From Rugalucina vietnamica (taxonomy: Eukaryota; Mollusca; Bivalvia; Lucinida; Lucinidae), in NCBI GenBank assembly GCA_964017185.1, contig OZ024877.1:8162006-8226005 (forward strand): a stretch of 64,000 nt of DNA. Direction: 5' to 3'. The position numbers and the translations under genes are program-made. The number at the start of each line of letters is the position of its first letter. Position 1 is the first letter of the stretch. Below are positions 1-30,397 of this stretch, one piece after another. The notes beneath the pieces are model-generated. The model saw only the letters and a program-made list of their open reading frames with translations, did no database searches and had not been told where the DNA came from.

Positions 1-29
1 CATTTTCATCCATTTCAAATACGAACAAT

Positions 30-237
30 ACCAAGAGCATAGTGGCTCAGGGATAGATTGCTGTATTGTGTATTGAAAGGTATGGGGTTCATAACGTACC
101 ATCCCTTTCAGCAGGACACTGTCCAAATGCTTATCACTCAATGATATTTTACCCAGGAAACAGTGGGTCATCCCGAAGTGACTGAAAACTTGTTGAGTGG
201 AAAACTAAGCCTCAGCTCAAATTTTTTTGTTATTCAG
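30..237 (+). repeat. Intronic tRNA-derived SINE candidate
   Basis: This lies in the intron upstream of the first visible OPLAH exon. Around 42-52 TGGCTCAGGGA is close to a pol III A box, and GGGGTTCATAAC near 84-95 is close to a B box. The tail (about 150-215, 'gtgactgaaaacttgttga') resembles the tail of another intronic copy at about 12385-12415, which follows the SINE-like word CCTTGAGCAAGGCA. This is a resemblance only; ends and target duplications were not found. Confidence 0.35.
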
Positions 238-348
238 GAAAGGCTGGATTTTTCCTGTGCTATGTTTGGTCCAGATGGTGGGCTGGTAGCTAATGCTCCA
301 CATATCCCTGTACATCTAGGGGCTATGCAAGAAACAGTGCAATACCAG
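238..348 (+). CDS. OPLAH: OPLAH exon (ERLDFSC...MQETVQYQ)
   Basis: The acceptor is tattcag and the donor CAG|GTACAT. It is 111 nt, phase 0 at both ends, and encodes the start of the hydantoinase-B region ([20 protein letters not shown]). Confidence 0.93.
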
Positions 349-3300
349 GTACATGCCTTTTTGGGGTTTGCAGTGTATTTTTTTGTTGTTGTCTTTGAAA
401 AAGAGCCTTGAAGAAAGATGTTTCATGATGGCTGCAAAAATTCCTTTATAGAATATGGAAAAGCAAATGCTTGGTTGCCATTCTGCAGACAAGGAGAACT
501 GACAAAGTATATTCTATTATATTAAATTTTTAAGCACTATGAGTACTATAAAGAAACCAATAAAGCAATATTGTGGTATATACTTTGACATCAAAAGGGC
601 ATAGAAACAAAAAAAATTACTTAAATATCCACACAATGTCCACAATCAATACTTCAGTATACTTATTTTTGAATTCTGTTTAACTTTTATTTCAGATAGA
701 TCAGCTGGGAGCCACTCTAAAATCAGGTGACGTGATATTATCCAATCATCCTCAAGCTGGTGGCAGCCATCTTCCTGACCTTACAGTCATAACACCAGTA
801 TGTCTGTCTCTAAAAAGACATTATTGCAGTAGGCACAAGGAATTTTGTATTCTCCGAATTCTAGATAACACAGAATTTGATTAGCAAGCTACGATACTCT
901 CTCTTGCCCCCACCCATCATGGCTTCGAGAACTTTATGGGCTACTGGGTGCCTCCATGCAGAGCTTACACAGCTGGTGTAACTGATTGACTGCCTGAGTA
1001 CTAATTCATCTCTTAGATGGTCTGAGCCTGCCCCAAAAAGTTGGTAATTCAAACCATCTTTGCATATAAGCATTAATTTTCTTATTTAACTGGATGTTGC
1101 TATATTGCAGCACACTGGGATGTTACATGTATTCAACTAGATTTTGGAAGCTCCACAAAAATGAAAGCAGTGGCTTGACAAGACCAAAGCTGTCAACTGG
1201 GTCATTTTGCAAAATATCAAACAAGCAAAACAAATATAGATGTCATTATTCACATAGACTTACTAGAATTTCTTGTTTTACAACACTGTATAAATTTCAG
1301 GTATTTTACCCTGGCCAGGACAAGCCAGTATTTTTTGTTGCTAGTCGAGGTCACCATGCAGATATAGGGGGAATAACTCCAGGGTCAATGCCACCACATT
1401 CCAAATACCTCCATGAAGAAGGTGCTGTGTTCAAGTCATTCAAACTGGTGAAAGGTGGAGTGTTCCAGGAGGAAGGTTGGTACTGGTGAAGAATAGCAGT
1501 CTGTTTTGACATTCTTATCTCTTATCTGCTGGCCGCGATAACTCAATTGCTAGCATGTTCAGTTAATGAAGTGGATCCATGATTAAATTTTCAGGCGTGT
1601 TTCTTTCATGAAGATTTTGTCACGAAAATATTTCTATTGTCATTCTTCCTCTTCCGCTGATTCAAGAAGAGCATTTGCCATGAAAGAAATGTGCTTTAAG
1701 AACTGGTATTTTGCCAAAGGGAGACTTGCCAAGGAACAGTGTGGCTAGGATAACTGAAGACCTGACTTGGTGAGACTTAGTTGAAAATCTATTTCATAAA
1801 GTCCCTTTCAGCACTTTATATTAGATACGTTTTCAGTCTTACTCATGTCTTTATTACGTAAGTTTTCGTTTGATTAGCGTCCCTTTTGTTTGCAGTTCTG
1901 TCAGAATAACTTGTGGCATTATTTGTGGTAGAAGAACTTTATTTAGGCTTTACATTACAACTATTTTTCATGATATTAGAAAGTTAAAGAAAATTATATT
2001 TTGTAGCTGTGACTGTAGCCCTCAATGCACCCTCTCAGTAAGGAAAGTATAATATATTTTCAAGCAGTGACAGCTGCCTTGAATGCTCCAGCTCAGTACC
2101 TCGGCAGCAGTGCAACACGTAATCTCAGTGATAATCTCAGTGATCTCAAGGCTCAAGTTGTAATAGACTATTTTTTCTTCCTAGCTGTGACAGCCGCCCT
2201 CAATGCACCATCTCAATACCCTGGCAGTAGTGCAACACATAATATCAGTGATAATGTATAGTCTGTTCTCTCTTACTAGCTGTAACAGCAGCCCTCAATG
2301 CACCATCTCAATACCCTGGCAGTAGTGCAACACATAATATCAGTGATAATGTATAGTCTGTTCTCTCTTACTAGCTGTGACTGCAGCCCTCAATGCACCA
2401 TCTCAATACCCTGGCAATAGTGCAACACATAATATCAGTGATAATGTATAGTCTGTCCTCTCTTACTAGCTGTGCAATGCACCATCTCAATACCCTGGCA
2501 GTAGTGCAACACATAATATCAGTGATAATGTATAGTCTGTTCTCTCTTACTAGCTGTAACAGCCGCCCTCAATGCACCATCTCAATACCCTGGCAGTAGT
2601 GCAACACATAATATCAGTGATAATGTATAGTCTGTTCTCTCTTACTAGCTGTGACTGCAGCCCTCAATGCACCATCTCAATACCCTGGCAGTAGTGCAAC
2701 ACATAATATCAGTGATAATGTATAGTCTGTTCTCTCTTACTAGCTGTGCAATGCACCATCTCAATACCCTGGCAGTAGTGCAACACATAATATCAGTGAT
2801 AATGTATAGTCTGTTCTCTCTTACTAGCTGTGACTGCCGCCCTCAATGCACCATCTCAATACCCTGGCAGTAGTGCAACACATAATATCAGTGATAAGGT
2901 ATAGTCTGTTCTCTCTTATTAGCTGTGACTGCAGCCCTCAATGCACCATCTCAATACCCTGGCAGTAGTGCAACACATAATATCAGTGATAATGTATAGT
3001 CTGTTCTCTCTTACTAGCTGTGACAGCAGCCCTCAATGCACCATCTCAATACCCTGGCAGTAGTGCAACACATAATATCAGTGATAATGTATAGTCTGTT
3101 CTCTCTTACTAGCTGTGACTGCAGCCCTCAATGCACCATCTCAATACCCTGGCAGTAGTGCAACACATAAAATCAGTGATAATTTATAGTCTGTTCTCTC
3201 TTACTAGCTATGACTGCAGCCCTCAATGCCTGGCAGTAGTGCAGCACATAATATCAGTGATAATGTATAGTCTGTTCTCTCTTACTAGCTGTGACTGCAG

Positions 3301-6300
3301 CCCTCAATGCACCATCTCAATACCCTGGCAGTAGTGCAACACATAATATCAGTGATAATGTATAGTCTGTTCTCTCTTACTAGCTGTGACTGCAGCCCTC
3401 AATGCACCATCTCAATACCCTGGCAGTAGTGCAACACATAATATCAGTGATAATGTATAGTCTGTTCTCTCTTACTAGCTGTGACTGCAGCCCTCAATGC
3501 ACCATCTCAATACCCTGGCAGTAGTGCAACACATAATATCAGTGATAATGTATAGTCTGTTCTCTCTTACTAGCTGTGACTGCAGCCCTCAATGCACCAT
3601 CTCAATACCCTGGCAGTAGTGCAACACATAATATCAGTGATAATGTATAGTCTGTTGTCTCTTACTACTTGTGACTGCAGCCCTCAATGCACCATCTCAA
3701 TACCCTGGCAGTAGTGCAACACATAAAATCAGTGATAATTTATAGTCTGTTCTCTCTTACTAGCTATGACTGCAGCCCTCAATGCCTGGCAGTAGTGCAG
3801 CACATAATATCAGTGATAATGTATAGTCTGTTCTCTCTTACTAGCTGTGACTGCAGCCCTCAATGCACCATCTCAATACCCTGGCAGTAGTGCAACACAT
3901 AATATCAGTGATAATGTATAGTCTGTTCTCTCTTACTAGCTGTGACTGCAGCCCTCAATGCACCATCTCAATACCCTGGCAGTAGTGCAACACATAATAT
4001 CAGTGATAATGTATAGTCTGTTCTCTCTTACTAGCTGTGACTGCAGCCCTCAATGCACCATCTCAATACCCTGGCAGTAGTGCAACACATAATATCAGTG
4101 ATAATGTATAGTCTGTTCTCTCTTACTAGCTGTGACTGCAGCCCTCAATGCACCATCTCAATACCCTGGCAGTAGTGCAACACATAATATCAGTGATAAT
4201 GTATAGTCTGTTCTCTCTTACTACTTGTGACTGCAGCCCTCAATGCACCATCTCAATACCCTGGCAGTAGTGCAACACTTAATATCAGTGATAATGTATA
4301 GTCTGTTCTCTCTTACTAGCTGTGACTGCAGCCCTCAATGCACCATCTCAATACCCTGGCAGTAGTGCAACACATAATATCAGTGATAATGTATAGTCTG
4401 TTCTCTCTTACTAGCTGTGACAGCCGCCCTCAATGCACCATCTCAATACCCTGGCAGTAGTGCAACACATAATATCAGTGATAATGTATAGTCTGTTCTC
4501 TCTTACTAGCTGTGACTGCAGCCCTCAATGCACCATCTCATACCCTGGCAGTAGTGCAACACATAATATCAGCGATAATGTATAGTCTGTTCTCTCTTAC
4601 TAGCTGTGACAGCCGCCCTCAATGCACCATCTCAATACCCTGGCAGTAGTGCAACACATAATATCAGTGATAATGTATAGTCTGTTCTCTCTTACTAGCT
4701 GTGCAATGCACCATCTCAATACCCTGGCAGTAGTGCAACACATAATATCAGTGATAATGTATAGTCTGTTCTCTCTTACTAGCTGTGACTGCAGCCCTCA
4801 ATGCACCATCTCAATACCCTGGCAGTAGTGCAACACATAATATCAGTGATAATGTATAGTCTGTTCTCTCTTACTAGCTGTGACTGCAGCCCTCAATGCA
4901 CCATCTCAATACCCTGGCAGTAGTGCAACACATAATATCAGTGATAATGTATAGTCTGTTCTCTCTTACTAGCTGTGACTGCAGCCCTCAATGCACCATC
5001 TCAATACCCTGGCAGTAGTGCAACACATAATATCAGTGATAATGTATAGTCTGTTCTCTCTTACTAGCTGTGACTGCAGCCCTCAATGCACCATCTCAAT
5101 ACCCTGGCAGTAGTGCAACACATAATATCAGTGATAATGTATAGTCTGTTCTCTCTTACTAGCTGTGACTGCAGCCCTCAATGCACCATCTCAATACCCT
5201 GGCAGTAGTGCAACACATAATATCAGTGATAATGTATAGTCTGTTCTCTCTTACTAGCTGTGACTGCAGCCCTCAATGCACCATCTCAATACCCTGGCAG
5301 TAGTGCAACACATAATATCAGTGATAATGTATAGTCTGTTCTCTCTTACTAGCTGTGACTGCAGCCCTCAATGCACCATCTCAATACCCTGGCAGTAGTG
5401 CAACACATAATATCAGTGATAATGTATAGTCTGTTCTCTTTTACTAGCTGTGACTGCAGCCCTCAATGCACCATCTCAATACCCTGGCAGTAGTGCAACA
5501 CATAATATCAGTGATAATGTATAGTCTGTTCTCTCTTACTAGCTGTGACTGCAGCCCTCAATGCACCATCTCAATACCCTGGCAGTAGTGCAACACATAA
5601 TATCAGTGATAATGTATAGTCTGTTCTCTCTTACTAGCTGTGACTGCAGCCCTCAATGCACCATCTCAATACCCTGGCAGTAGTGCAACACATAAAATCA
5701 GTGATAATTTATAGTCTGTTCTCTCTTACTAGCTGTGACTGCAGCCCTCAATGCACCATCTCAATACCCTGGCAGTAGTGCAACACATAATATCAGTGAT
5801 AATGTATAGTCTGTTCTCTCTTACTAGCTGTGACTGCAGCCCTCAATGCACCATCTCAATACCCTGGCAGTAGTGCAACACATAATATCAGTGATAATGT
5901 ATAGTCTGTTCTCTCTTACTAGCTGTGACTGCAGCCCTCAATGCACCATCTCAATACCCTGGCAGTAGTGCAACACATAATATCAGTGATAATGTATAGT
6001 CTGTTCTCTCTTACTAGCTGTGACTGCAGCCCTCAATGCACCATCTCAATACCCTGGCAGTAGTGCAACACATAATATCAGTGATAATGTATAGTCTGTT
6101 CTCTCTTACTACTTGTGACTGCAGCCCTCAATGCACCATCTCAATACCCTGACAGTAGTGCAACACTTAATATCAGTGATAATGTATAGTCTGTTCTCTC
6201 TTACTAGCTGTGACTGCAGCCCTCAATGCACCATCTCAATACCCTGGCAGTAGTGCAACACATAATATCAGTGATAATGTATAGTCTGTTCTCTCTTACT

Positions 6301-9300
6301 AGCTGTGACAGCCGCCCTCAATGCACCATCTCAATACCCTGGCAGTAGTGCAACACATAATATCAGTGATAATGTATAGTCTGTTCTCTCTTACTAGCTG
6401 TGACTGCAGCCCTCAATGCACCATCTCAATACCCTGGCAGTAGTGCAACGCATAATATCAGTGATAATGTATAGTCTGTTCTCTCTCCCTAGCTGTAACT
6501 GCAGCCCTCAATGCACCCTCTCAGTACCTGTGCAGCAGTGGAACACATAATCTCAGTGATAATCGCAGTGATCTCAAGGCTAATAAGTCTATTTTCCCTT
6601 GCTAGCTGTGACTGCAGCACTCAATGATCCCTCTCAGTACCCCGGCAGCAGTGGAACATGTAATCTCTGATAATCGCAGTGATCTCAAGATAATCTCAGT
6701 GATCTCAAGGCTAATAAGTCTGTTTTCTCTTCCTAGCTGTGACTGCAGCCCTCAATGCACCGTCTCAGTACCCCAGCGGCAGTGGAACCTGTAATCTCAG
6801 TGATAATCTCAGTGATCTCAGGGCTAATAATGGTCTATCTTCTCTCCCTAGCTGTGACTATAGCCCTCAATGCACCGTCTCAGTACCCCGGCAGCAGTGG
6901 AACACGTAATCTCAGTGATAATCTCAGTGATCTCAAGGCTCAGGTAGCAGCTAATCAAAAGGTAAAGATACATTAAAATTGTCCATTCTCAATTTTCATC
7001 TTTTACTTTTTTAGTTTGGTGGATGTAGTTGCTAGCATGTTTCAGTTTAATTAGACAATTTTCAGGTGTGATTTATGGTTCAGACAGGTTTTGTTGAATA
7101 GTTTAGCACTGAGTACTGGCTAATTGCTTGGATTTAATGTGTACAAGAATTGTATTGTTAGGATAAAAGACTGTTTGAATTTAGCAAAGAACAAACAAAA
7201 CTCCATATTTTGGAGAGGGTAATATTAGGCTTGAGTTTTTTAAAGTTCTCAAGTTGAACTAAACCAATGGTGAACATTTATCTGGATTGCAATTGTTTTG
7301 CTGTTTTGAAATTTTATCATATTTTTATGATTATGAACAGGATGTTTTCTGAAATGAAATTTTATAGTATTAACTTTGTTCATTTCTTTCCACAACAGGG
7401 TATTAGGCTAATCAGTGGACTGATAGATGAGTATAGTCTTGAAGTCGTACAGGCTTACATGGCTCATATTCAGGTATGGGACTTTAGTATTTGAGCCGCC
7501 CCATGGGAAAACCAACAATCTGCATAGGCGAAAACAAAGACGCAGATCAGCTTCGCGGTAACCGCGAAGCTGATCAGCGTCTTTGTTTTCGCTACTAGGA
7601 TAGTGCAATTCCTCTTCTACTTAAATTCGAAATTTCAGGCTTCTAGCTCCTTTCTGTGCTTGTACAGGCCGGTTTGTGTCGGACCTGTTCGGAAACCACA
7701 TTGTTGGTTTTCCCACGAGGCGGCTCATTTATATCACACGTTTTCATAAGCTCTTATATGGTAAGCTGCTAAGAAATCGTTTCTCGATATTTGTGCAATT
7801 ATTTCAATTATTTATATGAATTATACAAATAGGAATACTTGTTACATGTGCATCATAACCATTTTTAGCACTCCGGTTTTGGCCCACCTCATCTGAAACA
7901 TAAAAATAAGGTTTTCTATTGACATTTCATACATACAAATCTTACAGAACAATGCAGAACTAGCTGTACAGGACATGTTGATAGAGATTGCCCGAAAGAC
8001 CAAAAAGAGAACTGGCACCACTAGTCTGTACGCTGAGGAGTTTATGGATGATGGAGCCAATGTACGACTTAGGGTGGATATTGATGAGAGTACAGTAAGT
8101 TGGAACTGGTGAAATATATACTGATTTTGCAGCTACTTTACAGATTCCTTGCAAGTTTGCCACTCAAAAACAAATACCTCAACATTTTGACTGATAGATT
8201 CTGAACAACTCTGACTTCTAATTAGGCCAATAGATCATTACAGACAGGTCATGAGAAAACCAGTGCTTTGCCTGTGTGAAAAAAAGGCAGATCAGCTGTG
8301 TAGTAATTGCACGATCAGTGCCTTTGTTTTTACTTTTCGGATTGTACAATCCCCCTTCTTTTTAAATACCAAATTTCATCTTCTAGCCTTCTTCTGTGAC
8401 TGTACAAATAGGTTTATGTCAAACGAGGTTGAAAATACCCACGACGTTTTCTCATGACGTGGCTGAAATGAAGTGAGTGTATCTTTCCAGGGCACAGCAG
8501 TGTGTGATTTCTCTGGTTCAGCCTATGAAGTATACGGCAACTGTAATGCTCCAAGGGCAGTAACTCTGTCTGCTCTTATCTACTGTCTGAGGTGTATGGT
8601 GGGACATGATGTTCCCTTGAATCAGGTAAAGTTATGGTATTAAAGATTAAAGTGATGGCTCAAATTTAAAGATACATGTATTTAGAATTTTTGTTTGATA
8701 ACCAAAAAATAAAGCAAAAGCTAAATTTTTGAAACCATAAACATCTTGAAGATTATTGATGCTCCAAACTGTGCCAAATCTAATTTACTGCAACACTGTA
8801 CAGGCAGGTCTTAAAAAGTTATAAAAGTATATTTAATTTAACTCGTGTGATCGCGAATCTTTCCCTGCTTATAAATGTTGACATGCTAATAGAGCATAGG
8901 CTAACCATCCATATTACCATTAAATTTATTCCTTTGATGGTTATAAGCAGCTAAAATCAGTTTTGCTTAACTTAGATAAGTATGAAGAATGTTTTTTTAG
9001 CCTCAAAGCCAGTTCTTTTAAACCTGATCATGTTTCAGGGTTGTCTGAAACCAGTGAGAGTGATCATACCCCAGTGCAGACTTATAGTCTGACATTAAGC
9101 AGCATCACAAGAAAACACACATGCTGAACTGATTTGAGAATGAAAAAGTTGAACTGATCATGTTTTAGGGTTGTCTGAAGCCAGTTAAGGTAATCATACC
9201 CCAGGGCAGTATTCTGGACCCGTCAGAGAATGCTGCGGTGGTTGGTGGGAATGTTCTGACCTCACAGAGAATTGTTGATGTCATCTTCAAGGCTTTTGGA

Positions 9301-12300
9301 ACTTGTGCTGCCTCACAGGTTTGTTCTGTAGTTTGGCAATTGAGAGGCATTATGAGAAAGCACTCATTTTATATCACAGAAAACAAAGATGCTGATTAAC
9401 TGTGCAGTAATTGTGCAGCTGATCAGCATCTTTATTTTTGCTACACAGATAATGCAATCCTTCTACTTCACCATTTCACCAGATTTGTGTCTGACCTGGT
9501 TGAAAACCACAAAGTCAGGTTTTAAGAAACTGTGTGATTATTTTCTGCAAGTACAATGCCAAGTGTGTGTTTTTTTTGTGCAGCTGCATGTTCAGCTCTA
9601 AGCTCAGATCACTAGCTAAGCATGTCGCAAGCAAAGATGAAAACAGTTTCAATTGTTTAATTGTCAAAGCACAATTTTACTTGTGTGGGCCCCCGCTGTG
9701 GGAAATAGATGGGCTGCTTGTGCCTCCAGGCAGTTTGTGTATGTCATGACATCTCAATGTTGGGTAGAAGTCCCATAAAGTTGATGCAACATCCAGACAT
9801 GACCATAGCTGTTGACTAGAGCTTAAAGCATCAAGTCAAACAGACACACAAAAAACACACACTGCTTTAATTTGCATTTACCTTGTATAATTGTTTACAC
9901 TGCATTCTAGGGCTGTATGAACAACATAACATTTGGAGATGAGAAGTTCGGACATTACGAGACAGTGGCAGGAGGAGCAGGAGCAGTAAGTCTGTTGGAT
10001 CTTGGAACTTTTTGCCATCTATTATGAAAGCACACCTATTCAATAAATAGATCTTCCCTAAGTTGTAAAAATGGAATCATTTTCATTTGAAAAGCGTTGA
10101 TATTTTTTCTTGTTTTTACTCAAAACATAGTGAGAAATGGGAATACATAAGAAAAAAGATATTTGAATATTTAGATGATCACATAATTAAATACATTAGA
10201 AAATTCTGACAATTTGCATGATCAAGGCTTTGCTTATGCCTTAGAAGGATTCAAAAGCAAAAGAATGTTATTTTTTTTTTCATTTCTCTAAAGTGTATGG
10301 GATTGTGTCATTCATACCCTGACATGTACGAATACCATTGTAGGGTCCTAGCTGGGATGGTAGAAGTGGGGTCCATACACATATGACCAATACCAGGATA
10401 ACAGACCCAGAGATACTGGAGAGAAGGTAGATAACCTTCAATTATGCTTTAAGATATCAAAGTTGTTGTACAGATCCTAAGTAAGATAAAATATGATACC
10501 TACTAAGTTTACTGACTGTAAATTCAGGTTTTTTTGTGTAACTTTTATTACGGGAAGTTTCTGTTTTTGAATTACAACAAATTCTTGTTTTTGCGAGTGA
10601 GCAGTCTGTAAAGCATGGTTACTATTTGTTGGTGAGAACTGAGTTCGTGAGGAAACAATATCACTAATATTAGTGAAAATTAAGTTCTCGCGAACTATTC
10701 TGAAGTTACAGTAAATACATACAGTGGAGCACGGTAGTCTAGTGTTTAGTGAGTGAGACTGCGGATCGAGAGTTCAGGGGTTCAAAGGGCACTGACGCTG
10801 CATTACGGAAACATGCCCATATAATATACTGTAATTTTTTTCAGCTCAAAAATCGAAAATTTCAGTGGAAAAATTTTGATATCTTATTTTTGCTCAAAAC
10901 ATACAATGTGGGTACACGTTAGAACAGCCTCACCGAGGCGGTTCTAAAAAGTACCCACAATCTATGTTTTGGAGCAAAAATAAGAAAAATAGGTATACCC
11001 CTGCATTCCCCAGTTTTGCTATATTAAAGTGGGATATAAAGGGGTATTCATTGCATGGATATGTTTTCCTGATGGGGTTGTTTTCGCCAGTACTCATAGT
11101 ACAGGATTGAAAAACAATGACTGGGGCATAAATCTCAAAACAAACAAAGAAAAGCAAATGTTATAGATTATCTTTTGATTAAGTCAGGATCCTGCTTTGA
11201 CGGTATCAATCATTCAAACTGGTTTAAACTGGGTTCCAACAAGGTGTAAGTGTGTAAAGTTTATATTTAAGCACTGCTGCTTGTGCGCTTGTTACTTAAT
11301 TTTATTTTCGAGCTCCCGAAATTGACCAAACACGAGTTGTAGTATGGCTCTGCCTCTCATTAAAAGCTAGGACAAAGATTAAGCACCATTCATTTCACTT
11401 TCAATTTACTGTAATATATATTCACAATTAGCCACATGCATTTGTTTGTCCTGGTCAGTGTATATTTTGATTGACCGGTGGCATTTGGTCAATTTCATGT
11501 CAACATGGATAGTGTAATAAATTTTTATCTCACTTCTAAGTGCATGCCACTATGATAAGATAGGCGTCTCTGTGGACTTATATTTCTCTTTTTTCACATG
11601 ACATGTTTGTTTCTTCTGCAGATACCCTGTTGTTCTGAAGAGGTTCCACCTGAATCCTGGCACTGGAGGTCAAGGTCATCACATGGGTGGAGATGGTGTG
11701 GTTCGTGAGTACCTCTGGAGGAAATCTCTCATGTTGTCTGTGCTGACAGAGAGGAGGGTGTTTAGTCCTTATGGGCTTCATGGTAATGTTCTTTAGTATG
11801 AAGGTTGTGATAGTATCATCTTTAAAGTCTCTATAGTCATTTCAAATCATGTGACCATTGAGCTGCTTTACTTAGCAGACCCTTTTGAATATTGACATAG
11901 GTTTTTCAGTCAAGATTGTTTTTATCCAAAGTTTATCCATTTCTTTACCCATAGAATGTGCTATTAACCTGGAGCCAGTTGTTCAAAGCATCGTTAGCTT
12001 AACAATATCGTTAAGACATGTTAAGCAAATATCAGCTAAAGTAACAAATACACTGTTATTTTTTGTTGAAAAAATGTGAGAATCCTTTGCAGTGCAAAGG
12101 ATTCTCACATTTTTTCAACATAAAATAACAGTGTATTTGTAATATTAATGTTTGAAATGTTAACGAAACGTCAACTAACGACGTCGTTAGTTTTGAACAA
12201 CTGGCCCCTGTTTAGTGTCTGATCTCAGTTCATCAGACTGAGCATGGTAAAGGTTTATGGTTTGAAACCCACCACTGATGTGCTAGGTCCTTGAGTCCTT

Positions 12301-14328
12301 GAGCAAGGCATATTTCTCTGTGAAGTACTGGTTAGATATACTCTGAAAGCAATGGCTCCATTCTGACGTGACTGGAAAATTGTTGATTGGAATGTTAAGC
12401 TTTAACTATAACAAACCACCAGCAGGCCAATTAGCAATAAGATATGAGCCACCTCGTGGGAAAACCAACAATCTGCATAGGCGAAAACAAAGGCGCAGAT
12501 CAGCTTCGCAGTAACTGCGAAGCTGATCATCGCCTTTGTTTTCGCTACTCAGATAGTACAATTCCTCTTCTACTTAAATCCAAAATTTCAAGCTTCTAGC
12601 CTGCTTCTGTGGCTGTACAGCTCAATTTGTGTCGGACCTGTTTGGAAACCACATTGTTGGTTTTCTCACGAGGCGGCACTGTAATTTTTTGGGGGAGTTT
12701 ACACATACTAATAGTGTTTCTATTTGTTAGTTTATTGCTTTTGTGGTATTATTTTTCCCACAGGTGGTCTCCCAGGAAAGAAGGGACTAAACCTGATGTA
12801 TTATAAAGATGGCAGAATTGTAAATCTTGGAGGAAAAACATCAGTCCAATGTCAAGCAGGGGTAAGCAATATATTGTAAAATATATTTAGATTGGGATGT
12901 CAAAACACTCTCAATGTTAATGTTGCATCTGTAAACAGAATAAATGATTAAGGTTCAGGCCTAGAAAAATCCACACGTCCGCTCGTATTTACGAGTGAAA
13001 GTTCGATACGGGCGAGTGGAAATTTACCCTGGCTCGCCCGACAGGACGAGTAGCATTTTCGGGACTGACTCGAGGCAGTAAATGTCCGTAAATGCAAAAT
13101 CAGCTGAAGATTTTGTTTCCGATTGTCAACCGGATGTTTGCACTACGTCACTAGTCCGCAGTAAATGAAATTCAATAAAATCCGGTACATGGTCCAAATA
13201 CCGGAAAGCATTGGTCATTTTATTCACGGCACGCCGTACTATCGAGACTTAAGACGTCCCAGGTTTTATCTCCATGTGATAAAACGGCTTACACAAAAAG
13301 TCAAATAATCGAGAATTTCCATTTTGATATCGGAAGTAGACAAAAAAAATGTCGAAAAAGGGCGACATTAGTTTTTGATGATTTTTGTCTCTTTTGAAAT
13401 CCATATTTTAAGGACAAGTGCACCAGCAGTAAGGACGAGTGAAAATTGTTTACAACTCGCCCCACAGGACGAGTAGGTCCTCAGAAAAATTTCTAGGCCT
13501 GAGGTTGGGGGTTCCTCTGGCTGCACCATTCCGGTCATAATTAGTATTCATAGCAATTTCACATGTCTCATCACAACTATTTGGGTTGGATCCCTACATA
13601 GGTCAGATGGAATTAAGCCAAGTTCACGCAAGGCTTGAAAAAAAAACACAAAAAAAACAAACAAACTCACATTCCCGACAGGATTCGAACACAGAACCTC
13701 CTAGACAAAAATCCAGTGTTCTTACCACTGAGCCAAGGAGCCAACACTCTGGCACAGTATGTAAAAGCAAATGATATTGAGTGAATGGAGAGGCAATGAT
13801 TTTGTTTGTTTGAATTGATGCTTTACAGTGTAGTCAACAGCTAAGGCAATGTCGGGACGTTGTCTCCATTTTATGGGACTTTATAACCCAAAATGAAGAT
13901 GTTATGACATCCAACAAGTGCTTGAAATATAACCATCCAACTAAGCCGCAAAATGCTTATGCATATGGATGGTTTGACTTGACTTGAACCATGTTTCCTG
14001 GACAGGCTTTGACAAGAGCGGTTAACCAGTAATCAGATGATCAGTCAGTAGCTTATAAGCTTTACCTGGAGGCACAAGCAGCCCATCTATTTCTTTATGT
14101 CCCAATGGGTAGGGGCCCGAAAGGCAATGGTACATAACACTTGTATGTATTTTCCAGGACATTTTCCTGTTACAAACTCCAGGTGGAGGTGGGTTTGGAA
14201 AGTTAGAGGATGTAGCTTCAGAACCTGACAGAAAAAGAAAGAAACTAGATAAAGATACATCTAGTGTTTCAACAACAGTGGGACGGGGCAGTGTTTATGA
14301 TTATCAGAGGGCTCAGGAATCAGTGTAG
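238..14328 (+). CDS. OPLAH: 5-oxoprolinase (ATP-hydrolysing), C-terminal half, 13 exons
   Basis: OPLAH opens 5-oxo-L-proline to L-glutamate with ATP hydrolysis, in the cytosol, as part of the gamma-glutamyl (glutathione) cycle. Thirteen exons join in frame with GT-AG borders: 238-348, 696-797, 1301-1475, 6852-6961, 7399-7473, 7948-8094, 8491-8625, 9169-9318, 9911-9985, 10344-10426, 11622-11782, 12764-12861 and 14158-14328. They total 1593 nt, 530 codons plus TAG. The protein is the HyuB-like half: [33 protein letters not shown] (metal-site region), [81 protein letters not shown] and TPGGGGFG. The C terminus ends [10 protein letters not shown], very like vertebrate OPLAH. The full protein is about 1290 aa, so the HyuA half lies upstream of the window. 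No frameshift or stop is seen. Introns are loaded with mobile DNA. I am very sure of family and orientation; splice choices rest on frame and conservation, not transcripts. Confidence 0.96.
696..797 (+). CDS. OPLAH: OPLAH exon ([13 protein letters not shown]...TVITP)
   Basis: The acceptor is ttatttcag and the donor CCA|GTATGT. It is 102 nt, phase 0, and encodes the conserved [19 protein letters not shown] stretch. It is too short to show as an ATG-initiated ORF. Confidence 0.93.
910..1060 (-). repeat. SINE-like family S fragment in OPLAH intron
   Basis: The words 'tgggtgcctccatgcagagcttac' (in part) and 'gactgcctgagtactaatt' match the copy at 41690-41910 (cgcctgagtactgatta). It lies between OPLAH exons. 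Both ends are decayed. Confidence 0.4.
1301..1475 (+). CDS. OPLAH: OPLAH exon ([11 protein letters not shown]...GGVFQEE)
   Basis: The acceptor is aaatttcag and the donor GAGGAAG|GTTGGT. It is 175 nt, ends in phase 1, and carries the family signature [19 protein letters not shown]. The leftover G joins CT of the exon at 6852 to make Ala (EE-A-VT), as in vertebrate OPLAH (QEEAVTEAL). Confidence 0.94.
1476..2003 (+). other. OPLAH intron before the array, unique sequence
   Basis: This AT-rich intron sequence follows the donor at 1476. I see no coding potential, tandem structure or recognisable mobile element before the first exon-like copy at 2004. Confidence 0.6.
2004..2155 (+). pseudogene. Two degenerate copies of the OPLAH exon (5' edge of array)
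   Basis: At about 2008 a copy (tttgtag|CTGTGACTGTAGCC...) is cut off after the sequence for APSQ. At about 2063 a longer copy encodes [16 protein letters not shown]-type text through [11 protein letters not shown], nearly the whole exon. Its end (CTCAAGTTGTAATAG) has lost the GTAAAG donor and runs into a stop. It may be an ancestral or displaced exon copy. Neither copy can replace the exon at 6852. Confidence 0.75.
2176..6490 (+). repeat. 95-bp tandem array derived from an OPLAH exon and its splice acceptor
   Basis: There are about 45 head-to-tail units with a 95-bp period (for example, the word TATAGTCTG at 3361, 3456 and 3551). Each unit is a pyrimidine-rich acceptor (tctctcttactag) followed by about 71 nt homologous to the 5' part of the exon at 6852, encoding [15 protein letters not shown] and SDN. 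It then closes with GTATAG, an in-frame TAG, leading into the next acceptor. The exon's 3' half and donor are absent. Most units are near-identical. Variants include a 13-bp deletion (about 2470, 2750, 4700) and a shorter 'CAATGCCTGGCAG' form (about 3227, 3783). It lies wholly inside the OPLAH intron 1476-6851. The 24-nt gap between exon-like parts is too short to be an intron, so the units are not serial coding exons. Confidence 0.95.
6491..6851 (+). repeat. Longer, divergent exon-derived units at 3' edge of array
   Basis: Three units of about 115-125 bp (acceptors near 6492, 6605 and 6736) keep more of the exon (through CAGTGATCTCAAGGCTAATAA) than the 95-bp units. They differ more from one another and lack the GTAAAG donor. 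They end in the acceptor ctctccctag of the true exon at 6852, so they look like older steps between exon and satellite. Confidence 0.85.
6852..6961 (+). CDS. OPLAH: OPLAH exon, parent of the satellite ([12 protein letters not shown]...AANQK)
   Basis: The acceptor is tctctccctag and the donor AAAAG|GTAAAG. It is 110 nt, entered in phase 1 and left in phase 0. It is the only copy of this exon in the window with both a full coding part ([21 protein letters not shown]) and a good donor, so it is taken as the functional one. Confidence 0.92.
7399..7473 (+). CDS. OPLAH: OPLAH exon ([25 protein letters not shown])
   Basis: The acceptor is ccacaacag and the donor CAG|GTATGG. It is 75 nt, phase 0. 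A MITE begins only about 20 bp downstream of the donor. Confidence 0.93.
7493..7726. mobile_element. MITE family 1, full copy with 4-bp target duplication
   Basis: Terminal inverted repeats of about 27 bp read GAGCCGCC...GGGAAAACCAACAAT from each end. A central palindrome pairs GCAGATCAGCTTCGCGG with CCGCGAAGCTGATCAGCG. ATTT flanks both sides (7489-7492 and 7727-7730). There is no ORF. It is the best-preserved of seven copies here (others near 8247, 9351, 12446, 14626, 19410 and 49462). Confidence 0.9.
7948..8094 (+). CDS. OPLAH: OPLAH exon ([11 protein letters not shown]...RVDIDEST)
   Basis: The acceptor is aatcttacag and the donor ACA|GTAAGT. It is 147 nt, phase 0, and encodes the [15 protein letters not shown] stretch. 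Confidence 0.93.
8247..8466. mobile_element. MITE family 1, diverged copy
   Basis: Ends 'tcatgagaaaacca' and 'ttttctcatgacgtggct' are inverted. The internal GCAGATCAG / GATCAGTGCCTTTG palindrome is weak but recognisable. It stops about 25 bp short of the acceptor of the next exon (8491). Confidence 0.75.
8491..8625 (+). CDS. OPLAH: OPLAH exon ([21 protein letters not shown]...)
   Basis: The acceptor is atctttccag and the donor CAG|GTAAAG. It is 135 nt, phase 0. It holds the highly conserved [19 protein letters not shown] stretch. Confidence 0.94.
9024..9079 (+). pseudogene. Partial duplicate of the next OPLAH exon with its acceptor
   Basis: The text ctgatcatgtttcag|GGTTGTCTGAAACCAGT, then GTGATCATACCCCAGTGCAG, copies the acceptor and first about 40 nt of the exon at 9169, shifted by 130 bp. 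It then diverges, with no donor and a TAG soon after. Like the 95-bp array, it is an acceptor plus exon 5' end without the 3' end. Confidence 0.85.
9169..9318 (+). CDS. OPLAH: OPLAH exon ([20 protein letters not shown]...)
   Basis: The acceptor is catgttttag and the donor CAG|GTTTGT. It is 150 nt, phase 0, with the conserved [18 protein letters not shown]. Confidence 0.94.
9351..9526. mobile_element. MITE family 1, shortened copy
   Basis: It retains the central palindrome (CAAAGATGCTGATTAAC ... GTGCAGCTGATCAGCATC) and the right half (ctgacctggttgaaaacc). It starts about 30 bp after the splice donor at 9319. Confidence 0.7.
9685..9860 (-). repeat. SINE-like family S copy in OPLAH intron
   Basis: It contains 'gatgggctgcttgtgcctcc', 'catgacatctcaatg' and 'gacatgaccatagctgttga', the reverse of words in the long copy at 13802-14118. 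No target duplication was seen. Confidence 0.7.
9911..9985 (+). CDS. OPLAH: OPLAH exon ([13 protein letters not shown]...VAGGAGA)
   Basis: The acceptor is tgcattctag and the donor GCA|GTAAGT. It is 75 nt, phase 0; [11 protein letters not shown] is a family signature. Confidence 0.94.
10344..10426 (+). CDS. OPLAH: OPLAH exon ([21 protein letters not shown]...)
   Basis: The acceptor is ccattgtag and the donor AGAAG|GTAGAT. It is 83 nt and ends in phase 2; the split Arg codon is completed by A at 11622. Confidence 0.94.
10724..10795 (+). repeat. tRNA-derived SINE head
   Basis: GGTAGTCTAGTGTTTAGTG resembles a tRNA D arm or A box, and GGGGTTCAAAGG a B box, about 45 nt apart. The body is cut off by the MITE starting at 10801. 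It is not a foldable tRNA gene. Confidence 0.5.
10801..11074. mobile_element. MITE family 2 (foldback), copy A
   Basis: The terminal inverted repeats are CATTACGGAAACATGCCC and the reverse complement of ATGTTTTCCTGATG. The central dyad is 'acaatgtgggtacacgttag' against 'taaaaagtacccacaatcta'. The family hallmark is a palindrome around CCGCCTCGCCGAGGCGG between copies of 'acccacaatctatgttttg'. Eight copies occur in the window. Confidence 0.85.
11622..11782 (+). CDS. OPLAH: OPLAH exon ([18 protein letters not shown]...)
   Basis: The acceptor is cttctgcag and the donor CATG|GTAATG. It is 161 nt, entered in phase 2 and left in phase 1. It carries GGDGVVREY and [14 protein letters not shown]. Confidence 0.94.
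11969..12210. mobile_element. MITE family 3 (foldback), copy 1
   Basis: The ends pair GCCAGTTGTTCAAA with TTTGAACAACTGGC. Long inner arms (acaaatacactgttatttt / aaaataacagtgtatttgt, and tgagaatcctttgca / tgcaaaggattctca) form almost one continuous hairpin. There is no ORF. A second copy is at 15760-16008. Confidence 0.88.
12446..12677. mobile_element. MITE family 1 copy
   Basis: Left end GAGCCACCTCGTGGGAAAACC and right end GGTTTTCTCACGAGGCGGC are inverted. The central palindrome is GCGCAGATCAGCTTCGCAG / CTGCGAAGCTGATCATCGC. It lies in the intron before the exon at 12764. Confidence 0.85.
12764..12861 (+). CDS. OPLAH: OPLAH exon ([17 protein letters not shown]...)
   Basis: The acceptor is ttcccacag and the donor GGG|GTAAGC. 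It is 98 nt, entered in phase 1 and left in phase 0; [13 protein letters not shown] is conserved. Confidence 0.94.
12956..13501. mobile_element. 546-bp MITE with 5-bp target duplication
   Basis: The termini CAGGCCTAGAAA and TTTCTAGGCCTG are perfectly inverted. AGGTT flanks both sides (12951-12955 and 13502-13506). Subterminal GACGAGT/ACTCGTC words recur (about 12976, 13040, 13430, 13470). No ORF was found. Confidence 0.88.
13671..13742 (-). repeat. tRNA-derived SINE head
   Basis: On the minus strand TGGCTCAGTGG is a perfect A box and GTTCGAATCC a perfect B-box core, with tRNA-like spacing. The acceptor stem does not pair well and A/C-rich low-complexity sequence follows, so it is a SINE head rather than a tRNA gene. 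The likely body continues down to about 13510. Confidence 0.7.
13802..14118 (+). repeat. SINE-like family S, longest copy
   Basis: It begins with a GTTT-rich stretch and 'gaattgatgctttacag', then 'tcaacagctaaggcaatgtc', 'cagtaatcagatgatc' and 'cctggaggcacaagcagccc'. The same words in the same order are at 43815-44165. Eight further partial copies occur in both orientations. I found no convincing pol III boxes inside it. Confidence 0.8.
14158..14328 (+). CDS. OPLAH: OPLAH terminal exon ([14 protein letters not shown]...stop)
   Basis: The acceptor is tattttccag. It is 171 nt including TAG at 14326-14328. [12 protein letters not shown] is followed by a lineage-variable basic stretch (RKRKKLDK) and the conserved end [13 protein letters not shown]. 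Confidence 0.95.
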   Translation, partial: DIFLLQTPGGGGFGKLEDVASEPDRKRKKLDKDTSSVSTTVGRGSVYDYQRAQESV

Positions 14329-14390
14329 CAAGTCTGGGTTTTGAGGTGGATATAGGTTATGATATGAGCAGCTTTAGAAACACACCAGTA

Positions 14391-14620
14391 TCACACTGTA
14401 TTAGCAGCAAGGTGGAACGTGTGATTTTATACAAAAATGCGTTCCCGACTGCCAAAAAAAAGGTGTTTTAGATTGCCAAAAAGCACCTGTTGCTAATGGA
14501 GAACATTTAATTTACATTCTATATCGTCATTTTGGCAATCAGAAACACCCTTTTTTGGCAATGTAGAACTCTTTTTGTTGATCAAAATGGTTGTTTGTGA
14601 TTGCCGCTAATATGGTGTGA
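14391..14620. mobile_element. Foldback MITE family 5, just downstream of OPLAH
   Basis: The ends TCACACTGTATTAGCAGCAA and TTGCCGCTAATATGGTGTGA are inverted. The inner 'attgccaaaaagcacc' is echoed as 'ggcaatcagaaacacc'. A short GTA flank on each side may be a target duplication. It lies about 60 bp after the OPLAH stop and may sit in the 3' UTR. Confidence 0.7.
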
Positions 14621-14625
14621 GTATG

Positions 14626-14808
14626 CATAGGCAAAAACAAATATGCAGATAAGTGCACAGCTGATCAGCATCTTTGTTTTCGCTACACAAATAGTACAAC
14701 CCCTCTTCTTCCTCAATCAGAAATAACAAGCTTCTAGCCTGCTTCTGTGACTGTACAGGCTAGTTTGTGTTGGACCTGTTCAAAAACCCAAAGTGTTGGT
14801 TTTCTCAT
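14626..14808. mobile_element. MITE family 1, truncated copy
   Basis: It starts inside the family at 'gcataggcaaaaacaaatat', keeps the GATCAGCATCTTTGTTTTCGC arm and ends 'gttggttttctcatg'. The left terminus is missing. Confidence 0.75.
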
Positions 14809-14872
14809 GCTTTCAGACTTTCAGAAACACTTTAAACTATGTGTAGTGTCCCTACTACAGTATGGTGGCTCT

Positions 14873-15147
14873 CATCTGGATGATGTCTGTGTAATATATA
14901 CCCCCTATACCCCACTTTTATATAGCAAAACTGGGGTATGCAGGGGTATAACTATTTTTCTTATTTTTGCTTCAAAACATAGATTGTGGGTGCTCGTTAG
15001 AACTGCCTCAGTGAGGCGGTTCTAACGTGTACTCACAATCTATGTTTTGAGCAAAAATAAGAAAAATAAAAAAAAATTCTATTTAAAATTTTCAATTTTT
15101 ACAACTTAGGAAAAATCTGTTTATTACATGGGCATGTTTTTGTAATG
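14873..15147. mobile_element. MITE family 2, copy B
   Basis: It is oriented opposite to copy A: 'gtaatatatacccc...tatagcaaaactgggg' comes first and 'catgggcatgtttttgtaatg' last. The central palindrome is AACTGCCTCAGTGAGGCGGTT. It faces copy C, about 40 bp away. Confidence 0.85.
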
Positions 15148-15189
15148 ATTGTCTATAATCACAATCAGGGTATAGCAGTGTATTTAAAG

Positions 15190-15468
15190 CATTATAAAAA
15201 CTTGCCCATGCAATATACAGAGTTTTTTTTCAGCTGTAAAAATTGAAAATTTCACCAGAGCAATTTTGATATTTTTAATATTTTTGCTCAAAACATAGAT
15301 TGTGGGTACACGTTAGAACCGCCTCGCCGAGGCGGTTCTAACGAGTAACCACAATCTATGTTTTGAAGCAAAAATAAGAAAAATAGGTATACCCCTGCAT
15401 ACCCCAGTTTTGCTATATAAAAGTGGGGTTCAAGGGGATATACATTACACGGACATGTTTTCCTGATG
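15190..15468. mobile_element. MITE family 2, copy C
   Basis: It runs from CATTATAAAAACTTGCCC to ATGTTTTCCTGATG with a near-perfect central palindrome, AACCGCCTCGCCGAGGCGG. With copy B it makes a back-to-back inverted pair. Confidence 0.88.
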
Positions 15469-15541
15469 GGAACATATAATTTATAAACCCTTACTGTCCA
15501 CTTTACTTAAAACCGAAACTATGGTGTAATCGGGACACTCA

Positions 15542-16620
15542 GTTTTAGCTCACCTGAGCAGAAGGCTCATAGGTGAGCGTATAGGATTGGCATGCTCTGG
15601 TGCTGTTTTTGTCATCATTGTCATCCACACTTTTCAAACATCTCCTGTGAAACTTTTGGGCCAATCAAAGGCAAACTCTATTTGGAGCATCCTTAAGAAT
15701 GGAGAAAGAATGTTCATATAATAATAAATGGTGCAGTGCACATGAGCAAAAGTGCCACCAGGGCTTAGTTGTTCAAAACTTCGTTAGCTTAATGCTGTCA
15801 TTAAGGCTTGGTTAAAGCCTCAATTTGTTAACTATATATCGACTTCAAAAGCAAATACACTGTTATTTTTTTTTTATAAAATATGAGAATCCTTTGCATT
15901 GCATTTTATCCAACAAAAAACAAAAACACAGTGTATTTGAAATATTCATGTTTGAAATTTTGACAAATCGTTAACTATCGATGTTGTTAATTTTGAACAA
16001 CTGGGCCCAGAGCTGTAAGTAGCCTTTAAAAATCTTCTTCTCCAGAACTGGAAGGCCTATGATTTTGAAAATTAGCATGAAGCATTTAGGAATGGAGCTC
16101 TACACAGTTTATATAAATCATAACCCTTGAACTTTTTTATGGCACGGTAAACTTAGGTTGAATTGGGAAAATATGTAAAATGCCATTTAATGGGGGAAAC
16201 ATTCTTAGAATATGCAAATGGACAGAAAAATTATGTTTGAAAATTTTGGTCCCAGGGGTTGTCTGCTCAGGCTTCGAGGCTATATATATGCATATTTCCA
16301 GAACATTTAAACATCTCCAAAACAGCTTAGCCAGTCCAAGCAAAATTTCATATGAAGCAACCTCGCAAAAGGAGAAGAAATGTTTATATAAATGATCCAG
16401 GCTACTTGACCATTATAATTATGGCCACCTGATGGCCACAAATAGCATAATCCTTTAAAATTTTTTATATTGGTATAGTGAATGGGGAAAATTGGTATAG
16501 TATCATTTAATTGGGAAGCATTGCAATAAATTGACAAATAGACAGAAGATTATGTGCATGTTCTTTGCCCAAGGTTGGCCCAGGGCTATGCACAAGGACA
16601 TGGATTCAAGTATACAGTAT
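15542..16620 (+). repeat. TTAGCTCACCTGAG-family element, copy 1
   Basis: It opens with TTTTAGCTCACCTGAGCAG and a hairpin (CTCACCTGAG...CTCATAGGTGAG). Family words follow (ccacacttttcaaacatc, 'ggccaatcaaag', 'cagaactggaaggcc'). It is interrupted by the MITE at 15760-16008. It is not coding; reading frames here are accidental. Confidence 0.7.
15760..16008. mobile_element. MITE family 3, copy 2 (nested)
   Basis: The ends are GGGCTTAGTTGTTCAAAA and TTTTGAACAACTGGGCCC. The inner arms 'aaatacactgttattttt' and 'aaaaacacagtgtatttga' are conserved with copy 1. Confidence 0.85.
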
Positions 16621-16862: not shown

Positions 16863-18690
16863 TTAGCTCACCTGAGCCGAAGGCTCACAGGTGAGCTTAT
16901 AGTATAGTGGTCGAGCCGGTGTCCGTGCATCGTCCGTCGTCGTCAACATTTTCAAACGACTTTTCCTCTGAAGCTGCCAGGCCGAATCTTTTCATATTTC
17001 ACATATAGCATCTACAGGTGGGGGGAACGAATATTGTGCTTTTTATTTCGATCGGATAAGAACTGTGGTTGCTATGGCAACTTATGCTTCCCATAGACTT
17101 ATAATGGAGAAAAGTGAAAATTGCCTATTTTTGCTGTCTTGTTTGAGATATTTCAATTTTGTTTTTGCAGAAATGTTTATTGAGTAGTCCTCTACGTTTC
17201 ATGTGACTTTTGTCCTAATCCTTCATTTTGATTGGTTGCAGGGGCCCCATACAGGGCAAAATTTCGAAAAACATTCAAAAATCTTCTTCTCAGAAACTGT
17301 CAAGGGGATGAAGCCTATACTTTGTATACATGTTCCTGACAGTGGCCTCTACATAATTTGTGTTTTTTATTCCAGGCGGATAAGAACTCTGGTTGCTATG
17401 GCAACTTAAAGTTTCCATAGACTTATAATGGGAAAATTGGAAATCGGCTATTTTTCCGCTAAAATTGCAGACACTTGAATTTTGTTTTTGCAGAAATGTT
17501 TATTGAGTAGTGTTTGACGTTTCTTGCGAGTTTTATCCTAATCCTTTATTTTGATTGGTTGCTGGGGCCCCATAAAGGGCAAAATTTTGAAAAAAAAACA
17601 AAACAAAAAAAAAACATTCAAAAATCTTCTCCTCAGAAACTGTTAAGTGGATGAATCCTGTACTTTGTATACATGTTCCTGACAGTAGCCTCTACATAAT
17701 TTGTGTTTTTTATTCCAGTCGGATTAGAACTCTGGTTGCTATGGTAACTTTAAGTTTCCATAGACTTATAATGGGAAAAGTGGAAATTAGCTATTTTTTG
17801 AAAACTATTGCAGCCTGAGATCTGAAAAGTGGTAGATGCAAACAACTAATGGATTAGATGAAGGTATATGATTAATTTAGGTCAAGGTCATCTCTTGACC
17901 TTGGCCGGTCTGTCGTCCATACACACTTTTCAAAGATTTTTTTCTCTGAAACCACTTGGCCAATCAAAGCCAAATTTTATATGGAGCATCTTTAGGAAGT
18001 GGGAACCAATGTGTATATAAGTAATGCAGGTCACATGACCAAGATGGCCGCCATGCCCATATATGGTAAAAACCATTAAAATATCTTCTTCTCCAGAACT
18101 GGTCAACCGATTTCAACGAAACTTTGCATGAAGTATGGATGACTCAAGTACTACAATGTATATATAAAACATGACCCTGTGGTGACCTTGACCTATTTTA
18201 TGGCAAGGTCAACATAGGTTGTCAATGCATTTGAATGGGAAAAACTTTTAAAATGTCATTTTAAGTGAAAGTCTTGCAGGAAATGGGCAGTAGGACTGAA
18301 GTTTAATGATTCTGAAAAAAAAATGGACCCCAGGAGCCCATCTGCTTTTAAAATGTTATTTTTTGAAAACTATTGCAGCCTGAGAACTGAAAAGTGATAG
18401 ATGCAAACAACTGATAGAGTAGATGAAGGTATGTGATTAATGTAGGTAAAGGTCGATTTTGGAAACATAGGCAAACATGGAAACATGGGAAAAAGTGACA
18501 ACAAGGTCTCGGGTAAGCATTTACAGGACCAATGATCCTATGGAAACCATTGCAGCCATAGGCCTGAAACTTGACCAAGATGACCGTCATACCCATATAT
18601 GGAAAAAAAACAACACTTTGTCCAGTGACTGTACTTGTTGACTCTCAGGTGAGCGATCGTTGCCCTTGGGCTACTTGTTGTATATCTCTA
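16863..18690 (+). repeat. TTAGCTCACCTGAG-family element, copy 2
   Basis: It starts TTTTTTAGCTCACCTGAGCC with the hairpin CTCACCTGAGCCGAAGGCTC / CAGGTGAGC, and ends 'ctcaggtgagcgatcg'. Inside, a unit of about 325-340 bp repeats imperfectly: GGTTGCTATGGCAACTT at 17067 and 17391, and GGTTGCTATGGTAACTT at 17733. The 18.0-kb part matches the 457-bp units at 35.5 kb. It is non-coding. Confidence 0.8.
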
Positions 18691-19405: not shown

Positions 19406-19409
19406 ATAA

Positions 19410-19644
19410 GAGCTGCCGCATGGGAAAACCAACAATATGCATAGGCGAAAACAAAGACGCAGATCAGCTTCGCGGTAACCGCGAAGCTGATCAGCGCCTT
19501 TGTTTTCACTACACGGATAGTACAATTCCTCTTCTTTCTAAATCCAAAATTTCAAGCCTCTAGCCATCTTCTGTGACTGTACAGCCTGCTTTGTGTCGGA
19601 CCTTGTCAAAAACCCAAATTGTTGGTTTTCTCACGCACAGGCTC
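19410..19644. mobile_element. MITE family 1 copy with 4-bp target duplication
   Basis: It opens GAGCTGCCGCATGGGAAAACC and ends GGTTTTCTCACGCACAGGCTC. ATAA flanks both sides (19406-19409, 19645-19648). The central palindrome CAGATCAGCTTCGCGG / CCGCGAAGCTGATCAG is perfect. Confidence 0.88.
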
Positions 19645-20698: not shown

Positions 20699-21525
20699 TG
20701 TTACGTGCCAGGCGTAACTAGAAGATTAAGGAAACCAACAAGTTGGTTAGCCAGCAACAAGCTTTGTTTAAAATTTAACAAATCTATTTAGAAGTGATTT
20801 AACCAGTAATTACATGTGAAACAATCAAAAGCATATATACAATCAAACAAAAATGAATGTACAATACCTTTCAAGATGTTAATTCCCTTAAAGAATGTCT
20901 GAATGTCCCTCAGAAATTTTTAACACAAGTCTGTATCAGTTTCTGATCCCAAGAATTAAAGTTTGTTTCAAAATAGCACTATGTCCCAATCCAGAATCGA
21001 ATATCACAAAGTAATCCAAGAATAAGTTTAAATTCCAGTAAGATAGATTTTGACTTCTTAATAGTAACAGTACCCAAAGATTGTCCTTATGAAAATTTGT
21101 AGCCCTTATATAGCACTGAGGAACATTCAGGATTCTTCCAGCAAATTCTATGATATCATATACTAAAATAACAAGTTGTTTACCAAAATTTAATGTTTTG
21201 GAATATTCTAGAGAGGCCATTATACTTCCAGAAAATTCCACAATATTCTTTTGACATAAAAAAAGATTCTTCTAGAAGATTCTACATCTTTGGTTCTTCC
21301 AGATTTTTCCGGACTTTTCCGTCAAAGAACAATTTGAAATTTCTAGAAAATTCTGAAGTAAACAACCTGTTTATGTCCAATATCTGGGACACTAAAAGTA
21401 AATAATTGCTAAGGACAACAAGTAAACATCATATGTATAACATCATACTTTCCTGGGCATACTCCCTTGGGAAGTTTACCAGTACTGAATGCACATCTTT
21501 CAACAAGTAACTGTCATACATAACA
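20699..21525 (-). repeat. 3' LTR of the Gmr1-like element
   Basis: It is 827 bp and reads TGTTACG...CATAACA on the plus strand. Compared by eye with 30421-31248 it shows six substitutions and one A insertion. Confidence 0.93.
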
Positions 21526-21545
21526 CTTCCCCTCTTCAAAGAAAA
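21526..21545 (-). promoter_or_regulatory. Polypurine tract next to 3' LTR
   Basis: The minus strand reads GAAGAGGGGAAG directly before the LTR start (TGTTATG). This is the usual plus-strand primer position. Confidence 0.75.
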
Positions 21546-21672
21546 GAAAGTTTTCTAAAATAAAGCTTTCTTTTGCAATACTGGATAATTGTATACAATA
21601 TGTTTAGCAAAATTTGTGCAAAACTAATCAAATACAACAGCACAAAGCTGGACATCAGCATTGTAGAGGCAC

Positions 21673-26936: not shown

Positions 26937-27136
26937 CCAAAAGCCAAAAAATAAAAGTATCTGTACGACATTTTATCTTATATGTTTTAATAGATGAAAT
27001 GTCCAAATGTTTTAATCTAATATTGATTTCACTTTTATGGTTGCTATGGTTACACAAAATGGCCGCCAATATGGGCTAAAGTAGGAAAATCACAATTTTG
27101 GACCGAAATTTAGAGGTTTAACAGAGAAGTTTACAT

Positions 27137-30307: not shown

Positions 30308-30397
30308 GGTTGCTTTTTGCTGGCTTTAGCTATTTAAACAGCAAACAGTGAAGATACTTTAGAATTTTAAATAAATTTGGTGCACAAGAAATTTCAA

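Follow-up and report, generated by a model that had tools for sequence, protein, structure and literature searches.

A minisatellite of acceptor and exon-start copies in an intron of the OPLAH gene of the bivalve Rugalucina vietnamica

The 64-kb window analysed here, meaning the whole stretch of 64,000 nucleotides at positions 8,162,006–8,226,005 of contig OZ024877.1 (assembly GCA_964017185.1) of the lucinid bivalve Rugalucina vietnamica, contains on its + strand the 3′ part of the 5-oxoprolinase gene (OPLAH). One OPLAH intron carries 51 head-to-tail copies of its own 3′ end joined to the start of the following exon, 6852–6961, and these copies lie directly upstream of that true exon. We read the array as an intronic minisatellite that was seeded by a tandem duplication across the 3′ splice site and amplified with little effect, an interpretation to which we assign a probability of about two in three. 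Read from the sequence, the homology with the exon, the order of the units, the diverged edges and the homogeneous core all point this way, and the array probably does little.

The 13 OPLAH exons within the window join into a single open frame ending in a stop codon, with an AG preceding every exon start and a GT following all 12 internal exon ends. Exons 1–7 joined matched Pfam Hydantoinase_B (E 6.5e-102) as well as hydantoinase-type solved chains (best E 2.1e-17). The frame, the borders and the Hydantoinase_B match bear out the gene call of a first-pass annotation of this DNA. A 371-residue OPLAH query searched against the assembly (1.09 Gb, 47 contigs; E up to 0.01) yielded 51 matches, and since all of them fall at the present locus, OPLAH appears to be single-copy in this assembly. 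The intron harbouring the array (1476–6851) measures 5376 nt versus 347–1296 nt for the 11 other introns between in-window exons, and the array occupies 4845 nt of it (2007–6851).

Units were delimited at their acceptors using anchor words picked by eye, which gave a count of 51 in place of the about 45 units of the first-pass annotation; Tandem Repeats Finder (TRF) reported a period-95 array at 2176–6563 with 46.8 copies and 95% matches. The annotated unit length of 95 bp applies exactly to 40 of the 51 units, the other 11 being core units of 84 bp (three), 81 bp (two) and 94 bp (one) together with the edge units 1, 2 and 49–51 (Table 1). The 95-bp consensus is matched exactly by 21 units, and 23 unit types follow one another in a specific order. 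Mean pairwise identity within the core (units 3–48) is 98.1% with a minimum of 93.7%, and the edge units are diverged, at 65–89% identity to one another and to the exon. That the units copy the 3′ splice site and the exon start was correctly annotated, the sequence shared with exon 6852–6961 amounting to 71 nt in the core units and about 89 nt in units 49–51. The acceptor dinucleotide is AG in 48 of the 51 units and AC in units 19, 25 and 45. Alignment with unit 2 and units 49–51 shows the 95-bp unit to be about 20 nt shorter at its exon-side end; in unit 2 the exon portion is slightly longer than in the other units (GGCTCAAGTTG, the counterpart sequence being GGCTCAGGTAG). Translation read straight from the acceptor, AC units included, meets a stop in all 51 units within 10–64 codons, in agreement with the annotated premature stop if reading continues unspliced. 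The in-frame TAG after about 25 codons that had been described holds for 40 units, the remaining 11 stopping after 10, 11, 21, 37, 46, 57 or 64 codons.

Searching the genome with the unit sequence, with only the best candidates scored and very common words skipped, returned 25 reported matches, all 25 inside the present array and none at a second locus. An exact 35-nt unit pattern had no match in viral and genome contig collections, as expected for an animal repeat. Head-to-tail units in the range of about 10–100 bp, at one locus and inside an intron, are the features of an intronic minisatellite or variable number tandem repeat (VNTR); satellite DNA forms very long arrays or occupies many loci, and here the 25 reported matches all lie within a 4.8-kb array. 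As far as the genome search sees, the array is therefore an intronic minisatellite at a single locus and not the satellite it had been called. Coding potential of the core array was rejected, as the longest open stretch in six frames is 72 residues.

For its origin, we envisage that intron tail and exon head were duplicated in tandem, with the downstream copy going on to serve as the full, functional exon and the upstream one turning into intron. Such a duplication would be tolerated, since acceptor, frame and donor of the true exon all remain in place. The unit would then have been trimmed to 113–117 bp and further, by deletion, to 95 bp before being amplified, the order of these steps being the one we infer. 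Long exact repeats within the array (for example 543 nt at offset 556 and 442 nt at offset 1888) suggest copying of blocks of several units, and the 95-bp form may have spread through exchange of such multi-unit blocks. The spliceosome would mostly ignore the resulting decoys because almost none of them is followed by a good 5′ splice site that would allow definition as an exon, so that the array could have grown with little harm. Leakage into poison or variant transcripts would at most be expected from the decoys closest to the true exon (units 50 and 51), whose acceptors would yield exons of 356 and 225 nt, respectively, and from unit 10.

A donor is what most decoys are missing. Taking the weakest of the 12 real donors (5.46) as threshold, we found a single GT at or above it in the region 1990–6850, located in unit 10 and created by a T-to-G change, leaving 50 of the 51 units below this level. 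The unit 10 donor would delimit a possible exon of 71 nt, the same length modulo 3 as the 110-nt true exon. No recursive splice site, that is an AG followed by GT, occurs at the 51 acceptors, which are followed by CT, TG or TT. The units likewise do not form a mutually exclusive exon cluster, as one of 51 has a donor at the threshold and all 51 reach a stop. Branch points were assessed by the best branch-point-like word without an intervening AG, using a rough set of weights. The initial contrast was the word GGCTAAT, present at units 50 and 51 and at the true exon and not in the 95-bp units; in the scored test, 44 of the 51 decoys reached 0.58 (TGATAAT, 26 nt upstream) versus 4.44 at the true site, with 4.44 also in units 50 and 51 and lower or similar values in the remaining five. 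This weaker match lends weak support to an argument against decoy use.

Within the core, 8 substitution variants fall in the 24-nt splice tail (stop, pyrimidine tract and AG) versus 13 in the 71-nt body, giving no sign of selection on splice signals or stop in the core, where variants are few. Counted by codon position (1/2/3), units 51, 50 and 49 depart from the exon at 5/2/1, 4/2/4 and 3/4/3 sites, which shows no third-position excess. The data fit neutral tandem evolution, and a function resting only on the recent copies would be compatible with them too.

Several observations weigh against this inferred picture of an inert minisatellite. With an acceptor matrix built from 12 of the gene's own acceptors, the true 6852 site left out, the array scored −1.79, practically level with the true site at −1.74; this matrix discriminates poorly, however, because 157 of the 466 other AGs in the introns reach or exceed that score. 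The dozens of decoy acceptors of the first-pass annotation thus stand with respect to their local AG and pyrimidine tract, whereas the poorly discriminating matrix limits what the scores can say. On the donor side, the real donors contributed to their own matrix, and weaker donor-like words occur in most units (GCAGTAGTG, 4.27; AATGTATAG, 3.46), with TCAGTAAGG in unit 1 scoring 4.88, slightly below the threshold. On the branch-point side, 3 of the 13 true acceptors (median 3.42) fall below 0.58, and the decoys exceed the background of 466 AGs, for which the median is −2.81. By this rough test the decoy acceptors are intermediate, not dead, and we rejected branch-point loss as proof of dead decoys. 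Furthermore, all 46 core units have an intact stop context, and 43 of the 46 keep the AG. A third-position lean appears in some pairs (unit 2 versus core, 4/2/7; unit 50 versus core, 4/3/7; unit 49 versus unit 2, 4/3/7; the counts are small) and could reflect a coding past of some copies.

Partial exon copies are found elsewhere in the gene, and these similar events count toward the minisatellite reading. We compared each of the 13 exons in the window, together with 40 nt on either side, against the + strand of window positions 1–16500 (E up to 0.01), excluding matches of exon 6852–6961 within its own array. A second copy at 9024–9079 lies 130 bp upstream of its source (9154–9209) and is 87.5% identical over 56 nt (E 2.8e-14), matching at 49 of 56 positions versus a maximum of 28 in 200 plain shuffles of the intron; read in frame, it meets a stop after 17 codons. 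The sole further match is a dispersed repeat in a flank, and no donor-side partial copies were found in this comparison. In the 10 kb upstream of the window (L011), OPLAH exons could be recognised by eye, and one of them, with its start near L011 4496, is preceded at a distance of 375 bp by a 78-nt copy of its 5′ portion (84.6% identity). This third copy is without a clear acceptor, and we rejected it as an acceptor copy and count it as a partial exon copy only. All three OPLAH copies sit upstream of their source and carry the 5′ portion of an exon; three instances do not suffice for claiming an asymmetry between acceptor side and donor side.

The best precedent appears to be the VNTR in intron 18 of human ABCA7, of which the OPLAH array would be the mirror image on the acceptor side. 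The ABCA7 VNTR has a 25-bp unit beginning with the exon 18 donor and a large copy number; when a unit is retained, the frame shifts and a premature stop follows, and longer arrays go along with more exon 19 skipping and reduced expression, while unit retention does not change with length (PMC5954066). Both are intronic minisatellites with many copies of a unit that includes one of the neighbouring exon's splice sites, here an acceptor AG in 48 of 51 cases. In contrast to the 25-bp ABCA7 unit with the donor of the upstream exon, the 95-bp OPLAH unit joins the acceptor to 71 nt of the coding exon that follows; the measured RNA effects are those of ABCA7. Tandem repeats at exon–intron boundaries of recently duplicated human genes can alter splicing (PMC2812944). 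The OPLAH array shares this placement; those repeats, however, belong to large paralog families in segmental duplications, whereas OPLAH appears as one copy in the assembly search and the extra copies are intronic acceptors. The VNTR6-1 in intron 6 of TERT likewise comprises dozens of copies, and its link to splicing of the host gene reportedly runs via an expandable G-quadruplex (PMC11830802). The OPLAH array differs in consisting of duplicated splice sites, and its folding, judged on three units, does not surpass that of shuffles. Decoy exons such as that of OGT intron 4 cause intron retention and require 5′ splice sites (PMC12017769). The OPLAH units resemble them as intronic splice-site look-alikes that would bring premature stops, and on the 3′ side 48 of 51 have an AG with a local score like that of the true site. 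On the 5′ side they differ, 50 of 51 falling short of the weakest real donor; this shortfall holds at the 5.46 threshold only, as words of 4.88, 4.27 and 3.46 exist. Searches of open-licence papers in PubMed Central gave us no description of an array that combines an acceptor with the start of a coding exon, which is weak evidence of absence. On this comparison, the OPLAH array would join the splice-site-bearing intronic VNTRs as a variant with an acceptor and a coding exon start.

The first alternative is the regulatory idea of the first-pass annotation, in which the array acceptors would bind splicing factors and be spliced occasionally or stall splicing, so that more copies would mean less OPLAH mRNA via decay or intron retention. 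The near-complete set of AG acceptors with local scores on par with the true site, stops behind all 51 of them, the exceptional length of the intron and the human cases of ABCA7 (PMC5954066), TERT (PMC11830802) and OGT (PMC12017769) speak for such a rheostat. We nevertheless consider it unlikely: decoys of the OGT type require weak 5′ splice sites (PMC12017769) and 50 of 51 units stay below the weakest real donor, 44 decoys have a branch-point match of 0.58 versus 4.44 at the true site, the splice tail is conserved no better than the body (8/24 versus 13/71 variants), and three units folded with z +2.29, 200 of 200 shuffles folding equally well or better. Based on this folding result, and as Rfam gave no match in the window at gathering scores, RNA structure as a function was rejected. 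The broader proposal, that longer arrays leave less functional 5-oxoprolinase and that acceptor-side duplication is a recurrent route to decoys, seems to us more doubtful still.

A second alternative regards the units as mini-exons that could replace exon 6852–6961 in frame, or as descendants of once-coding copies. A 71-nt exon has the same length modulo 3 as the 110-nt one, a weak donor (AAT/GTATAG) or, in unit 10, AAG/GTATAG (8.48) is available, and the third-position lean in some pairs, such as 4/2/7 for unit 2 versus core, would fit. The common donor word scores 3.46 versus 5.46 for the weakest real donor, though, the exon and units 49–51 show no third-position excess, and by arithmetic the product would be short of 13 exon residues, making this alternative improbable. 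Inflation or misassembly of the array is more improbable again. Near-identical units are difficult to assemble, and the copy number in the assembly may be off, but the 23 unit types in specific order, the diverged edges, the open gene on both sides and the 62.67-Mb contig argue for a real array. A dispersed satellite or mobile-element repeat landing here by chance, conceivable in a window with many dispersed repeats, is barely credible given that the unit derives from the neighbouring exon and that all 25 reported unit matches, with very common words skipped, lie inside the array.

The locus offers a natural experiment in splice-site choice, since 48 AG acceptors scoring like the true one precede the real exon and the decoys consist of the same exon sequence, within an apparently single-copy enzyme gene. 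If splicing is accurate here, exon definition via the downstream 5′ splice site overrides proximity and number; if it is inaccurate, array length is a heritable dial for gene output.

Table 1 Features of the OPLAH locus. Coordinates refer to the window unless L011 is given; a slash marks an exon–intron border.
Feature	Position	Strand	Basis or detail
Unit 1, most truncated left-edge copy, 61 bp	2007..2067	+	acceptor TTGTAG; 65–78% identical to other edge units/exon
Unit 2, left-edge copy, 117 bp	2068..2184	+	79% identical to true exon
Core array, units 3–48, 46 units of 81–95 bp	2185..6492	+	TRF, acceptor splitting, identities
Unit 10, donor-bearing core unit	2828..2922	+	AAG/GTATAG, GT at 2899–2900, score 8.48
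Unit 49, right-edge copy, 113 bp	6493..6605	+	acceptor splitting, alignment
Unit 50, right-edge copy, 131 bp	6606..6736	+	GGCTAAT 23 nt 5′ of acceptor
Unit 51, right-edge copy adjoining true exon, 115 bp	6737..6851	+	GGCTAAT 23 nt 5′ of acceptor
Candidate branch-point-like GGCTAAT	6822..6828	+	25 nt 5′ of true acceptor, AG-free gap
OPLAH exon upstream of array	1301..1475	+	donor GAAG/gttggt
True OPLAH exon, array source	6852..6961	+	acceptor ccctag/CTG, donor AAAG/gtaaag
OPLAH exons 1–5 in window	238-348, 696-797, 1301-1475, 6852-6961, 7399-7473	+	open frame, splice sites
OPLAH exons 6–10 in window	7948-8094, 8491-8625, 9169-9318, 9911-9985, 10344-10426	+	open frame, splice sites
OPLAH exons 11–13 in window	11622-11782, 12764-12861, 14158-14328	+	open frame, splice sites
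Second partial copy	9024..9079	+	15 nt acceptor + 41 nt of exon 9169-9318
Third partial copy	L011 4128-4205 (C9:8156133-8156210)		source 4503-4580 (C9:8156508-8156585)

A dispersed repeat family with an internal hairpin recognised by eye, resembling a miniature inverted-repeat transposable element, has copies at 7489–7724, 12442–12677, 14645–14807 and 19406–19635 (80–89% identical), two of them in OPLAH introns and two 3′ of the gene. Further downstream, a retroelement encoding reverse transcriptase, RNase H and integrase domains occupies 20699–31248 on the − strand. It is probably a recent insertion because its flanking direct repeats (20699–21525 and 30421–31248) are 99.2% identical. An open reading frame with a BTB/POZ domain (31447–31743, − strand; Pfam E 6.4e-11) adjoins it, and a 457-bp tandem repeat with 3.8 copies at 35509–37233 is about 85–87% similar to 17908–18345. 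In the 20 kb farther upstream, we observed 191-bp tandem units (96% identical; L024, ~6027–7393) as well as 114-bp tandem units (~93% identical; L025, ~9331–9955), the latter inside a long open reading frame that looks Helitron-like by eye. These other upstream tandem arrays count toward the intronic-minisatellite reading.

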